32,404 nt of DNA from Hysterium pulicare CBS 123377 (lineage: Eukaryota; Ascomycota; Dothideomycetes; Hysteriales; Hysteriaceae). The stretch covers positions 1-32,404 of the forward strand of contig AJFK01000326.1 in assembly GCA_000467715.1 (NCBI GenBank), given 5' to 3'. Under the pieces are notes generated by a model that saw only the letters and a program-made list of their open reading frames with translations, ran no database searches and was not told where the DNA came from. Every line of letters begins with the position of its first letter. The first letter of the stretch is position 1. This document shows positions 1-30,212 of this stretch, piece after piece. A program made the translations under genes and the position numbers.

Positions 1-57
1 CGGATGATCTAACGGTGTTGCTTTGATCTTGCGTTGAGTTCTCGTTGGTTTGGTTAC
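1..57 (+). repeat. Dispersed short element, copy A (3' part, cut by window edge)
   Basis: Matches the 3' half of the complete copy at 2760-2900. The shared core includes gttgctttgat followed by ttgcgttgagttctc and a GTTTGG-rich tail. The left part lies outside the window or is lost. Differences from the other copies are mostly transitions plus a small gap before the tail. Confidence 0.7.
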
Positions 58-1168
58 TTTGAAGATGTAAAGCTTAGGGTTGATATGATGGAATTATGCG
101 ATGCACACGTACTATGAAAGAGGACAAGGACGGAAGGAGTGCATGCGTTCATGAGAAGATACATGGCGTGCTATGTGGGTAATCCAGTTTGCTTTCTGTC
201 GCGCTGAGGGGATAACAACCGCCTAGTCTTAGCACAGCTGCGGAGCGCTCTGCTACTCCCAAAGGACAAACTCAACCACTATATTTTTGAGCCGCAAACT
301 CTCTCACTCTAAAATCTCTCTAAGGCATCTCATCCCTCCTACTGTTGCGCATACGCTCTTCACTCATTTCTGCATACGTTTAGCAGCACTCGCACTTCCT
401 CGATACTCTTAGTACTCGCAGTTCCTTGATACGCCCGGGCGCTCTAACTTGCATGCGCACACCTAGTCACCTTCGAATACGGTCCTCCTCATCGAAACAA
501 GGCGCACGGCATATGTCTACCATAAAGGACGAGTGCAATCGCGTTGCCGCCGACATTTTGAAGAGCCCCGTCTCTCCCACGCCAATAGAGGGTGCGCTCC
601 GGTCATGTACCCAAAATAATCCAGTTTCAATCCTTAAAGTTAACTATCAACCAGACAGTGCATGACTTTGCAAGGTTTGTTAATGATATAACTCCTATTA
701 ATATTATAAGCCCCTCACTAATCTTGTGGCGTACTTGAAGTGTATTCTCGCGCGCTGGACCGGATTTCCCAAGGTTTACCTGAACATCTTCCGGCCGGAG
801 TACCCTATCGCAGTCCAAGCATTATGACTTCTTAGAGAACAACTTCCACGTAGATGAGGCAACTAGTCATATTACAGGCGTTGTGGACTCGGCCGATGCC
901 ATGATTGCCCCGTTTGGGATTTCTCTCGGCGGTCTTGAGACAATACTTGATTCTTGCATCTCCCTCTTCAATACCAGGGGTTCGGAGCAATCCAAATAGT
1001 CTCGCGGCCATAACTGAACGTCGATTATCTGCCAATATTGGGCCAATATGTCCTCAGAAAGCGTCCCCAGAAATACTCTCGGAGCTCAATATGATTGATA
1101 TGAAAATGACAACTGCCTGCAGTCTAAACACCAAGTATCTCGAGGCGTTGTGTATGCCTTATTTATCC
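58..1168. other. No recognisable gene
   Basis: Short open frames only, several without ATG and none resembling a known family. Pyrimidine-rich sequence at about 300-430 contains an imperfect 21-bp direct duplication with a 26-bp period (388-408 and 414-434, core actcgca then ttcc then gata). This could be a decayed promoter or leader, but nothing downstream supports that. Confidence 0.5.
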
Positions 1169-2515: not shown

Positions 2516-2759
2516 GTCAGTCGTGATTCAGGTCCAGTGTTGCTGCTAGTGTCTTGGTAGAGGCTCGCGAAGTGTATGCCTGACCTAGGCATTTCACCGA
2601 CGTAAAACCCATCAACAAAGCTTGGTCAGGGCATCGAGTTCGAACCATGGTAGGCATGCCTGTACACAGCATGCAATGGGAAAGCATGGGGCATCCAGCG
2701 CACGGGTACCAAAGCGCATCTTGCGCTCCCGTGGCAATGAGCGCATGTGCCTGTTGTTG

Positions 2760-2900
2760 AAGAAGAGTTTGATTAAGCTCAACCGCGCGCAAGCGGCGAT
2801 TATATTTAAAGCTCTCATTCATGGTTGATTTCATTCAATGATGTAACGATGTTGCTTTGATTTTGCGTTGAGTTCTCATTGGTATTTGGTTTCTTTGGTG
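2760..2900 (+). mobile_element. Dispersed short element, copy B (apparently complete) with target-site duplication
   Basis: A 141-bp unit starting aagaagagtttgattaagc and ending with a T/G-rich tail (tttggtttctttggtg). It is flanked by tgtgcctgttgttg (2746-2759) and tgtgcttgttgttg (2901-2914), a 14-bp duplication with one C/T difference. That marks insertion with a staggered cut. It has no coding capacity, no obvious terminal inverted repeats and no poly-A. The short open frames across it on both strands are products of the repeat. Other copies are at 1-57, 14700-14814, 21768-21893, 24971-25093 and 27971-28050. Confidence 0.8.
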
Positions 2901-2914
2901 TGTGCTTGTTGTTG

Positions 2915-4227
2915 GGAAAGGAGTAATGAATGATCATAGCAGCGATGGCAGGCTCCGATCTCACGATTGGTTGGAGATACGCACGGGTAGGTATCATGCA
3001 CATGCATACAGATTAGGCCACGCTGATGTCCATCTCCACAATTGTCCGCTCTTGGTGCCCGCATTTCCCGCGTCCGCTACGTGGTGGCAGTCGGCGACGA
3101 AGTCGACCAATGACGGCCGAGGTACCACCGCAGCCGGCTTCAAATCTGCTGCAGCGCTAGCAGGGGGCGGATTGGTCCGCAATCGGGCCATCTGGCGTTA
3201 CCTAGGTCATGCATCTCCATCTCTCCTCATCGTTTCTTGCTGCAACGGTTAGGATAGCTGCCCAGGCGGGTATCAGGGAGCTGGCTGGGCAAAGCCAACG
3301 ATCTAGGTGGCGCGTGGGACTAACTTCCTGTGTTGACGGATGAAAGCAGCACGCTCGTATCAACACGCTCACCTAAGTCTGCAGCCCTCCAAGGACTTCA
3401 GGGTCGACATGGAATCTTGCCTTCATTCTGCACCCTCCCGCCACAAGTTTTCCATGCTTGCCATGGTAGAATACGCCCACAAAAAAGCGCATCGGAATCG
3501 CTCCACCAACGCCCATCACTCACCGCCGTTTGTATTCGACAACTCAATAGTTGCCGCGGAAGGCGAAGTCGCTTAGACCTCAATCATGCAGTGACGGCGG
3601 CGTCACGTCTTCCACTTCCCCGCAGCCCGCTCCTGTGCTCCATACCTACATCTGCAGCCTCCTCCCGTTGCCCAATTCTCTATTCAGGGCTGCACGGCAT
3701 CAAACTCCCCCAAATACTTCAAAACGTATCTTTTGGCCCTCTGGCGTAGCTGCAACCATGGTTCACTGCGCCCACAATTTCCCTGGATACCCGTTGCCGT
3801 GCATGCTATGACTCTCTTCGACGAATGGAACGTCTTCCACTAGGAAACATGCGCCTTTTAGCGCGGTACCACCATTGTTGTCATTACTTCAATTCTAAGA
3901 CTTCAAGCATGAGCACGATGCCCGTACCCCTAGCGAACCGGAATCTGACTTCTACCAGCACGGCAACAAGCTACAACCTCCAATCACAGCCCCAACGCTT
4001 TCGCGGGAGCTGCCCATTTTGGGGTCTCCCACTTCTGCAGATAGCAAACGCATGTCAGGCGTTGCACAGCCCAATCTACTTAAAATTCTGCATAACGTTT
4101 TGAACGTGCGCCTGTCCGTGAGCTCCTTAAGTACCGGTCTCAGGCACCGAAAGTTCCTCCTTCCCATTCTCCACTACAATTCACCATCTTCGCTCCATTC
4201 TCGACCTTACTCCGAGCTGCTGAAACC
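2915..4227. other. No recognisable gene; leader of the AT-hook gene at the right end
   Basis: Several overlapping open frames of 60-139 codons occur on both strands without family resemblance or good ATG context. The last 100 bases before 4228 are pyrimidine-rich with few purine runs, typical of a fungal promoter or 5' leader. Confidence 0.45.
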
Positions 4228-4896
4228 ATGGCACACCGAAACTACGTCCCCCCAGATCCCTCGGTTAGCTTGTACCGCCTAAGGCTTGCCATAGAGATTC
4301 TTGAATCGCTGCCACCAGTGAGTGGACGGCATTGTGGCTTTAGCTTCTGCATTGTTTGGGCTAATTTGGACAAGGTCAATGAAGAGGATGAAGCGGGCGA
4401 CCTCGACATCGTTACGGAAGATGATGAAGTGGAAGAGGAAGGAGGAGAAGTGGACGGAGAAGAAGAGGAAGGAGGAGAGGCGGATGGAGAAGAAGAGGAA
4501 GGAGGAGAGGCGGACGGTGAAGAAGAGGGAGAGGCCGAAGAAGAGGGAGAGGCCGAAGAAGAGGGAGAGGGCGAAGAAGAAGGAGAGGGCGAAGAAGGAG
4601 AGGCCGAAGAAGAGGGAGAGGGAGGTGATGATGTCCCGAGCGTTGGAGATGTGCAGGTGCAGGGAGAGCAAGATGTTCAGGGAGATGAAGGAGGAGAGGC
4701 AGTTGGAGATGGAGGCGGAGAGGGAGGTGGAGAGGTGGGAGAGGAGAGACCCCGCAGAAGTCTAAGGCTGTCGCGCAACGATGAACGTCCTGGAGAGATG
4801 ACACCCAGTGGCAAAAGAGGTCGGTCTGAGAACAAAGCTTCTGGAGAGGAGGAACCGGCGAAAAAAAGAAAAAGAGGCCGCCCGTGCAAGAAATGA
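4228..4896 (+). CDS. Acidic AT-hook protein, probable chromatin-associated
   Basis: The ATG sits in a strong fungal context (gaaaccatggc) after a pyrimidine-rich leader. With the likely intron 4318-4374 removed, the product is 203 residues; unspliced it is 222. Exon 1 encodes a 30-residue head ending EILESLPP. Exon 2 encodes an acidic Glu/Gly domain of three 10-residue units (GGE[VA]DGEEE[EG]), then about five units like GEAEEE. A Gly/Glu linker follows, then a basic tail with RRSLRLSR, KKRKR (nuclear-localisation-like) and KRGRPCKK, which keeps the RGRP core of an AT-hook. Known AT-hook proteins bind the minor groove of AT-rich DNA, so a nuclear role is likely, but no orthologue is recognised. 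Long open frames in the other frames and on the minus strand here are shadows of the purine-rich composition. Confidence 0.7.
   Translation: MAHRNYVPPDPSVSLYRLRLAIEILESLPPVSGRHCGFSFCIVWANLDKVNEEDEAGDLDIVTEDDEVEEEGGEVDGEEEEGGEADGEEEEGGEADGEEEGEAEEEGEAEEEGEGEEEGEGEEGEAEEEGEGGDDVPSVGDVQVQGEQDVQGDEGGEAVGDGGGEGGGEVGEERPRRSLRLSRNDERPGEMTPSGKRGRSENKASGEEEPAKKRKRGRPCKK
4318..4374 (+). other. Probable intron of the AT-hook gene
   Basis: Donor GTGAGT, a CTAAT branch-like site at 4361-4365, and an AAG acceptor give a 57-bp intron of typical fungal size. It begins exactly between codons and is a multiple of three without stops, so retention would add 19 residues without breaking the frame. The acceptor is the weakest element (AAG rather than CAG or TAG). 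Confidence 0.6.
4441..4620 (+). repeat. Purine-rich coding tandem repeat
   Basis: Three 30-bp units (4441-4470, 4471-4500, 4501-4530) are followed by about five 15-18-bp units on the pattern gaggscgaagaagaggga. The plus strand is overwhelmingly purine. Copy number is likely to vary between strains by slippage. Confidence 0.9.
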
Positions 4897-12450: not shown

Positions 12451-12584
12451 CAGCGCTGGCAATGGAGTGGAGAGGAAAGGATTTGAGAGCCTAACTTGCT
12501 TAGGCAACCGGCTAGCCCGCATAGGCAGTACCTAACCTATTTAGGATTTGCGGTGAAATCCACGCCACTCCATTGTGAGCACTG
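12451..12584 (+). mobile_element. hAT-like MITE, copy 1
   Basis: A 134-bp non-coding element whose left end (cagcgctggcaatggagtgg) and right end (reverse complement cagtgctcacaatggagtgg) are inverted repeats. The second copy (21403-21551) lies in the opposite orientation and shares the interior, including gatttgagagcctaac, cttaggcaa and ctaacctatttaggattt. The 8-bp flanks gttcgctg and tctaagcg do not match, so the original target duplication is lost or the site was rearranged. It lies between the two F-box pseudogenes. Confidence 0.8.
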
Positions 12585-14687: not shown

Positions 14688-14699
14688 GAGGTCAAAGCA

Positions 14700-14814
14700 C
14701 AACGCAAAATCAAAGCAACATCGTTACATCATTGAATGAAATCAACAACTATAAATGAGAGCTTTAAATATAATCGCCGCTTGCGCGTGGTTGAGCTTAA
14801 TCAAACTCTTCTTC
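14700..14814 (-). mobile_element. Dispersed short element, copy C with perfect 12-bp target-site duplication
   Basis: A 115-bp copy in reverse orientation (3' end at the left). It is flanked by identical gaggtcaaagca at 14688-14699 and 14815-14826, which defines both ends exactly. Relative to copy B its 3' end stops after ttttgcgttg and lacks the following T/G-rich tail. So the 3' end is variable while the 5' end (gaagaagagtttg) is fixed, as expected for truncation-tolerant insertion. Confidence 0.88.
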
Positions 14815-14898
14815 GAGGTCAAAGCAGGGAGTAATTCAGGCCAAATAAGATCTAACACAGACCTTTAGGTCTGGTCGGTGGAGCTTCAGATGTGACCT

Positions 14899-21402: not shown

Positions 21403-21551
21403 CAGTGCTCGCAATGGAGTGGAGTGGAATGGATTTGACGCCCAAATTCATTCCATTCAAATCCTAAATAGGTTAGTGACTGCCTATACAGGCTAGCTGA
21501 TTGCCCAAGCACGTTAGGCTCTCAAATCCACTCACTCCATTACGAGCACCG
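21403..21551 (-). mobile_element. hAT-like MITE, copy 2 with 8-bp target-site duplication
   Basis: A 149-bp element whose left end cagtgctcgcaatggagtgg and right end (reverse complement cggtgctcgtaatggagtg) are inverted repeats. It is flanked by gttcttgc (21395-21402) and gttcttac (21552-21559), an 8-bp duplication with one G-to-A change. CAGTG-type ends with 8-bp duplications are the hallmark of hAT transposons. The interior matches copy 1 (12451-12584) in reverse orientation. It has no coding capacity, so it would need a transposase supplied from elsewhere. Confidence 0.87.
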
Positions 21552-21767: not shown

Positions 21768-21893
21768 CAATGAGAACCCAACGCAAAATCAAAGAAACAC
21801 CGTTACCTCATTCAATGCAATTAACCATAAATGAGTGCTCTAAATGTAATCACCGCTCTACGCGTGGTTGAGCTGTGCCAAAATCCTCTTCCT
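21768..21893 (-). repeat. Dispersed short element, copy D
   Basis: A reverse-oriented, nearly full-length but diverged copy. It keeps acgcaaaatcaaag, gtggttgagct and the cct-ctt-rich 5' end. No target duplication is visible. Its 5' end abuts the decayed 3' end of the dehydrogenase pseudogene, so the insertion may have truncated that gene. Confidence 0.75.
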
Positions 21894-24970: not shown

Positions 24971-25093
24971 GAGAAGAGTTTGGTAAAGCTCAACCACGTC
25001 TAAGCGAAGATTTTTGAAACTCTCAATTGTGGTCAATTTCATTGAATGGCGTAATGGTGTTCTTCGATTTCTCGTTCATTTTGATCGCATTGA
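24971..25093 (+). repeat. Dispersed short element, copy E (most diverged)
   Basis: Starts gagaagagtttggtaaagct, keeps caaccacg and the caatttcattgaatgg core, and diverges toward the 3' end. The sequence attggagaagag at the left and cattgagaagag at the right could be a decayed target duplication overlapping the element's own start, but that is ambiguous. Confidence 0.65.
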
Positions 25094-27970: not shown

Positions 27971-28050
27971 GAAGAAGAGTTTGATTAAGCTCAACCACGC
28001 GTAAGCGGTGATTATGTTTAAAGCTCTCATTCATGGTTGATTTCATTGAA
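27971..28050 (+). mobile_element. Dispersed short element, copy F (3' truncated)
   Basis: Starts gaagaagagtttgattaagc and follows the family closely to gatttcattgaat, then stops. Flanking gaatgcgag (27959-27967) and gaatgcaag (28054-28062) may be a short target duplication with one G-to-A change. If so, it was truncated at insertion. Confidence 0.75.
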
Positions 28051-28062
28051 TAAGAATGCAAG

Positions 28063-29917: not shown

Positions 29918-30212
29918 CAGAGCCTAAGCGTCGGAATTTAATTTCCTTAATTCTGATAATCATAGTAAAGAAGTTTATCTTGGATGCTTAGCCTCTGGGT
30001 TGGGTTTCATTGATTCCGATAATTACAATAAATGGATATGTCTTAGAGGTTTAGCCTCTAATTCAAATCTCGTTAATCCCGATAATCGAAAAAGAGGATT
30101 TCGTCCCAGAGGCTAAGCCTCTAAGTTAAGTTTCATTAATTCCAATAATCGAAAAAGAGAACTCTCTTCGAGCGGCTAATATTCAAGTTGAACTTCGTAA
30201 TACTTTGTTTTT
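29918..30212 (+). repeat. 63-bp-period tandem array
   Basis: About four and a half diverged units. The landmark agcct recurs at 29921, 29990, 30053 and 30116, and a weaker ggcta near 30175, so spacing is 69, 63, 63 and about 60-63 bp. Each unit carries gaggctaagcctct-like sequence with dyad symmetry, then tttcattaattccgataat and an A-rich run (cgaaaaagagg). Stops in all frames exclude a coding repeat. Units 3 and 4 are the most alike, so amplification may have proceeded from that side. Confidence 0.85.

Follow-up and report, generated by a model that had tools for sequence, protein, structure and literature searches.

Short dispersed repeats of Hysterium pulicare as probable retrocopies of the 3' end of a spliced, probably non-coding RNA

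A family of short repeats in Hysterium pulicare CBS 123377 is best explained as a set of retrocopies, inserted in trans by LINE machinery, that would all stem from the 3' end of a single spliced RNA with several exons and probably no coding function; we put the probability of this reading at roughly 78%. Two bodies of evidence carry it. The copies share one fixed end, vary at the other and are frequently flanked by target-site duplications (TSDs), and a locus on contig C234 contains the same sequence interrupted by four intron-like inserts that copies elsewhere largely lack.

Copies in the window and across the genome

The genome searched comprises 37.2 Mb in 596 contigs, and the window, i.e. 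the whole stretch of 32,404 nt analysed here, is its contig C257. For a hexosaminidase encoded on another contig (locus L016), the best of the listed hits is to Trypethelium subeluteriae (71% identity), of the Trypetheliales in the Dothideomycetes, which would place the host among the ascomycetes and probably close to that order. A first-pass annotation of the window, made from the sequence alone, had described six copies of the repeat. All six were recovered by blastn of the repeat against the window, at the places first given or a few bases away from them, and they are listed below with their duplications.

2746..2759: left TSD of the main copy, TGTGCCTGTTGTTG; its final G is common to TSD and element
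2759..2900, sense strand minus: main copy, 142 nt, a 5'-truncated retroposon with its fixed 3' end at 2759 and its truncated 5' end at 2900 (blastn, TSD)
2901..2914: right TSD of the main copy, TGTGCTTGTTGTTG; one mismatch against the left TSD
14688..14699: TSD of the second copy, truncated (5') side, GAGGTCAAAGCA
14700..14814, sense strand plus: second copy, 115 nt, with its fixed 3' end at 14814 (blastn, TSD)
14815..14826: TSD of the second copy, fixed (3') side, GAGGTCAAAGCA; a perfect 12-mer pair
21768..21891, sense strand plus: third copy, older and diverged, 83% to the main copy; no TSD detected
about 24965/24971..25076, sense strand minus: fourth copy, the most diverged in the window, 75% to the main copy; no TSD detected
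about 27971..28053, sense strand minus: fifth copy, short, about 83 nt (blastn match to 28051); weak TSD only, GAATGCGAG and GAATGCAAG, below the cut-off
1..61 (match 4-61), sense strand minus: sixth copy, cut by the contig start, only its 5' part present

Leaving aside the copy cut by the contig start, every window copy has the fixed end, which on its own strand reads GAAGAAGAGTTTG or nearly so. Convincing TSDs are present at just two of these five copies (2759-2900 and 14700-14814), a 14-bp pair with one mismatch and the perfect 12-mer, in agreement with the annotation, which had seen clear duplications of 12-14 bp at two copies. The copies at 21768, 24971 and 27971 score 5, 5 and 6.5, respectively, against a cut-off of 9.

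The family has more than 100 copies in the genome. A search of the whole genome, as the annotation had advised, with a 31-nt fixed-end pattern and up to three mismatches found 169 sites (93 forward, 76 reverse), and the reversed pattern, used as a control on the same genome, found none. We assembled 73 distinct copies from loci picked for their closest similarity to the window copy (141 nt) or to a longer head; in the genome DNA search for the repeat, 40 of 238 candidates were scored. The 38 copies with TSDs measure 66–358 nt, with 17 at 115–124 nt and five at 174–178 nt; length statistics of the 73-copy sample lean to selected matches, and the peak at about 120 nt may partly reflect this selection. 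TSD-flanked copies of greater length include one of 344 nt with a 14-bp TSD (L054, on C290) and one of 358 nt with a 12-bp TSD (L078, on C37). The existence of longer copies suggests that the short ones are the tails of a spliced RNA. The annotation had named, as an outcome that would count against a new family, copies running into a longer known transposon or LTR. Copies do extend, but the extension has no match among Rfam families and resembles a spliced transcript, with no recognised transposon or LTR in it. In two copies (L048 and L042) a CCAAAGAAC-like unit within the element is locally expanded in tandem.

Orientation, truncation and target-site duplications

On the strand of the window copy, the repeat starts mostly with GAAGAAGAG or GAAAAAGAG, and its end points vary. 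In target-primed reverse transcription the 3' end is fixed and the 5' end is lost, so that the sense strand is the other one, the fixed end being the 3' end and the variable end a 5' truncation. The sense-strand terminus accordingly reads ..CTCTTCTTC-3' (..GAGCTTAATCAAACTCTTCTTC). The annotation had suggested that target-primed reverse transcription inserted the repeat, taken as a short non-autonomous element with a fixed 5' start and variable 3' ends. This orientation is backwards and would not fit the mechanism; read on the other strand, the copies are 3'-anchored and 5'-truncated, which does fit it, and together with TSDs of 9–18 bp this supports the mechanism itself and the nature of the repeat as a non-autonomous retroposon.

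TSDs were called at an ungapped score of at least 9 in the 59 of the 73 copies that were usable, 14 having been left out for want of a fixed end or flank. This tabulation of end points and flanking duplications, which the annotation had also recommended, gave ends that vary on one side and a TSD in 38 of the 59 copies, compared with 0.35% of 3,422 mismatched flank pairs; the other 21 fall below the cut-off. TSD length ranges from 9 to 18 bp with a median of 13.5. In 32 of the 38 copies the TSD extends up to the element; 29 of these 32 TSDs take in the element's first base, G (p = 7.5e-15, with 25% assumed for G), and 12 of the 32 its first three bases, GAA. In the remaining six copies, 1–6 extra nt, in one case A-rich, stand between element end and TSD. 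No poly(A) tail was found, the element end adjoining the TSD directly in the same 32 of 38 copies, and here the annotation, which had reported no such tail, was right. Reading across the junction in 31 empty sites, T (18) and T (17) are the most frequent bases, and then G (24), A (19) and A (15). The excess of G at the junction may reflect annealing of the UUC at the RNA 3' end to the target, or it could reflect the preference of the endonuclease alone.

Five copies, those on C152, C238 (at 9402 and 107381), C443 and C256, are among the pairs that, gaps disregarded, have an identity of 1.0 across the 121 aligned nt of the 3' part, and their lengths are 255, 167, 124, 123 and 122 nt, respectively, each with a TSD of its own. 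Near-identical 3' parts combined with different lengths and TSDs seemingly point to one RNA truncated at different points. By eye, another copy (L053, C140:30788-30921) has an internal gap that takes out most of the 3' part, yet it still ends in CTCTTCTTC, next to a flanking repeat, which would fit a need for the terminus or a jump of the template.

An intron-bearing locus and the splice record of the copies

At C234 the sequence is the same as that of the repeat but is interrupted by four inserts of 49–59 nt, all with GT..AG ends in the sense direction.

i1, C234, 49 nt: GTACGT..CTATAG
i2, C234, 54 nt: GTAAGT..TTGGAG
i3, C234, 53 nt: GTAGGT..GCGGTAG
i4, C234, 59 nt: GTAAGT..GGCAG

A YTRA-type branch-like motif occurs in three of the four (it is absent from i4). 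The anchors on both sides of i4 are present in 25 of the 73 copies, more than at any other insert; 24 of the 25 lack the insert, and only C234 has it. Their junctions (marked here by a slash) read GCGT/ACCAG or a close variant in 14 of the 25 and GCGTGTAA/ACCAG in 8, where the donor lies 4 nt further on; two differ. The optional GTAA is identical to the first 4 nt of the C234 insert; where it is retained, GTCAGT remains as an alternative donor. Two further copies (L054 and L051) fail the i4 anchors and stand outside the 25; by eye, both are without i4.

At the other three positions the picture is mixed. Six copies besides C234 cover i1: L054 has the exact spliced junction, and the others comprise three that fall short by 5 nt, one that differs and one that gives no information. 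Among seven insert-less copies at i2, those on C514 and C240 fit splicing, with single substitutions near by, and five have an extra GAG, for which a tandem NAGNAG acceptor is only a guess. The 16 insert-less copies at i3 comprise five that fit a CCCAG acceptor, three that fit a GTAG acceptor and eight that fit neither, mostly with an extra GTAG or CGGTAG. Since some i3 sequence is retained elsewhere, about 31 nt from its 3' part on C77 and about 22 nt on C471, not every copy appears to have been spliced there. The absence of the inserts from the copies, their GT..AG ends at C234 and the alternative junctions are read directly from the aligned DNA; removal of the inserts by splicing would account for them, and C234 or its ancestor would then be the source of the retrocopies. 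C234 itself has no detectable TSD (score 4.5, with its 5' end not placed).

A search with C234 sequence upstream of the repeat suggests that the RNA had further exons there. C390 matches the blocks 72-124, 286-426 and 607-738 of C234, and the gaps between them are 53 and 78 nt in C390 compared with 161 and 180 nt in C234, a spliced-like spacing. In C234 the first block is flanked by TTCAG/ and /GTCATA and the second by TACATAG/ and /GTATGC, and the match in C390 ends exactly at these points; the start of the third C390 block precedes the expected acceptor by 12 nt. A further block, A, is matched by eight loci besides C234 (C390, C383, C137, C43, C451, C474, C241 and C82), all of which begin at most 5 nt from an acceptor-like TCTAG. 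Block A would be either the start of the RNA or the first exon after a distant one.

Coding potential and RNA structure

The RNA is probably non-coding and would presumably be made by pol II. When the C234 exon blocks from block B onwards are joined up to the 3' end (798 nt), no sense-strand run without a stop exceeds 83 codons, a length reached by 37% of 1,000 shuffles, so this part gives no sign of a protein-coding sense RNA. On the antisense strand of the same 798 nt, the longest run is 121 codons, reached by 4.9% of 1,000 shuffles. A reading of the same region as a plus-strand gene offers one open frame of 77 aa with no Pfam match and was rejected. RNAalifold applied to 55 aligned copies yields only a weak consensus structure (-6.4 kcal/mol).

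LINE relics, pol III signals and alternative origins

Two LINE family searches, for the APE-type endonuclease and for the reverse transcriptase, listed three matches each, which fall on C234, C128, C376 and C305 only. The C128 relic has both domains, with two TAG stops in the reverse transcriptase match; C376 has a reverse transcriptase match and C305 an endonuclease match. On C234 a broken LINE with endonuclease PF14529 and reverse transcriptase PF00078 (RVT_1) lies upstream of the repeat, on the same strand and reading towards it (L021, L077). This arrangement is what would be expected if the repeats were 5'-truncated copies of the 3' UTR of an autonomous LINE, C234 being that LINE and its 3' tail being spliced as in human L1 SpIREs, which, as described for that system, show that spliced LINE RNAs do insert (PMC5860796). 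However, in DNA searches with some 6.6 kb of C234 upstream of block A, the LINE included, nothing but block A itself matched elsewhere in the genome, and the eight other block A loci all start at the acceptor-like boundary, none of them running into the LINE. We therefore regard this origin as unlikely. Nor was a LINE 3' end in common with the repeat found in the C234 relic, the sole repeat match in L021 (C234:700-8800) being the copy at 3988-4133.

Less probable still is a classical SINE with its own pol III promoter, one copy of which, at C234, would later have gained the inserts as introns. The size of the repeats, their TSDs and the absence of coding capacity fit such an element, several insert-less copies at i2 and i3 are off the C234 splice sites, and the longer copies contain GTTCGACTC, which by eye resembles a pol III B box. 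Yet Rfam returned 0 families at gathering score for the window and eight loci, and ARAGORN 0 tRNAs in six loci, so that no tRNA, 5S or 7SL head was recognised there; this is in line with the annotation, which had seen no convincing pol III signals. Moreover, the longer copies have internal runs of five T, and such a run is expected to stop pol III. A single parent with introns is also easier to accept than four independent gains, all with GT..AG ends, in one copy; in addition, the GTAA seen in some copies at i4 reproduces bases 1–4 of the C234 insert exactly, and C77 too has part of i3, all of which favours retrocopies of a spliced RNA.

That the repeats are pieces of a DNA transposon (MITE), of a solo LTR or of a gene promoter that recombination has duplicated seems scarcely credible: the longer copies do hold, by eye, several TGAGTCA-like sites, and the other strand has a start-codon-like stretch that enters different sequences at different loci, but TSDs of 9–18 bp with one end anchored and many end points at the other are not the two fixed ends and single TSD length of a MITE, and no inverted pair of at least 25 nt lies within any window copy.

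RIP-like changes and other features of the window

Five copies have a load of RIP-like changes: CpA is the context of 36 of their 47 C-to-T changes, and TpG that of 16 of their 22 G-to-A changes. As the CpA lean is also present in the other 50 copies (46 of 67), load, more than context, sets the five apart. At least five such changes are found in 6 of the 16 copies of at least 190 nt, compared with 1 of the 39 shorter ones, and RIP-like C-to-T and G-to-A changes at CpA and TpG were seen in L078, L079, L068, L059, L056 and L048, mostly copies of at least 190 nt. Short copies may escape RIP-like change; alternatively, the load may stem from shared descent of mutated copies.

Three further features of the window were recorded. 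A second repeat pair, at 12451-12584 and 21403-21551, has CAGTGCTC..GAGCACTG-like terminal inverted repeats, and its copy at 21403-21551 is flanked by GTTCTTGC and GTTCTTAC; we take this pair to be a putative hAT-type MITE. Positions 4228-4896 contain an open frame of 222 aa; it includes acidic repeats of GEEE, and its end is basic and resembles an AT-hook (KKRKRGRPCKK). At 29966-30138 there is a 34-nt inverted repeat, 82% complementary, whose arms are 105 nt apart.

Discussion

The family behaves like a LINE-mobilised retroposon in which neither a small-RNA head, as in a SINE, nor the poly(A) of a processed pseudogene was found. Like processed retrocopies, i.e. LINE-made retropseudogenes, which are often 5'-truncated, the copies are TSD-flanked and are without the introns of their presumed parent, C234 (24 of 25 at i4, and with exceptions at i1–i3). 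Unlike them, they have no poly(A) and share a specific 3' terminal sequence, more than 100 copies derive from what would be one RNA, and the part of the parent that was analysed, 798 nt from block B to the 3' end, has no coding signal. As SINEs are, the repeats are short, non-autonomous, dispersed and TSD-flanked (169 sites; 38 of 59 copies with TSDs). SINEs are generally traced to pol III genes, and fungal examples are described as tRNA- or 5S-related (PMC5063351). Mg-SINE of Magnaporthe (PMC2104539) and the AfuSINEs of Aspergillus fumigatus (PMC5063351) are likewise short non-autonomous fungal retroposons with TSDs that are thought to borrow a LINE, and one AfuSINE also has its 3' end in common with a LINE, according to the same description (PMC5063351). 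However, AfuSINE2s are presented as tRNA-related with pol III signals (PMC5063351), whereas no small-RNA head was found here, and the 3' end of Mg-SINE is given as that of the MGL LINE (PMC2104539), whereas here none is in common with the C234 relic, the one LINE compared.

The nearest parallels in kind, as these are described, are the WEIRD RNA/MINE chimeras of Magnaporthe (PMC2104539) and human L1 SpIREs (PMC5860796). The former also involve a fungal non-coding RNA of unknown function, LINE-inserted and with short flanking repeats; WEIRD is fused to the MGL LINE, whereas the copies described here are unfused and have their anchor in a 3' end of their own. SpIREs, in turn, are genomic copies of a spliced retroelement RNA in which splice choices are recorded; here the host is a fungus, the RNA need not be that of a LINE and 24 of 25 informative copies are without i4. 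Among the matches listed in the literature on fungal and lichen SINEs, fungal retrocopies, spliced retrocopies and SpIREs, there is no earlier report of this family, and one may still exist.

We envisage that a gene like the C234 locus would be transcribed and its RNA spliced, and that a LINE endonuclease would nick the target with a preference near TT/GAA on the primer strand. The last bases of the RNA (..CUUCUUC) may then anneal to a target G, GA or GAA. Reverse transcription would start from the fixed 3' end and stop variably, often about 120 nt in, leaving 5'-truncated copies with duplications of 9–18 bp. A particular LINE would presumably have taken part in the insertion.

A broader reading, to which we give slightly better than even odds, is that this is a SINE-like family arising from an intron-bearing, spliced non-coding gene: the gene would be a resident source, its spliced RNA would have been retroposed repeatedly by way of a sequence-specific 3' end without poly(A), and the copies would form a fossil record of alternative splicing. 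If so, retroposons would have a further way of arising, in which an RNA of several exons, spliced and with a defined 3' end other than poly(A), gives rise to more than 100 copies, and the splice isoforms of a fungal non-coding RNA would be readable from DNA alone. The family also offers a test of which 3' sequence a fungal LINE recognises.
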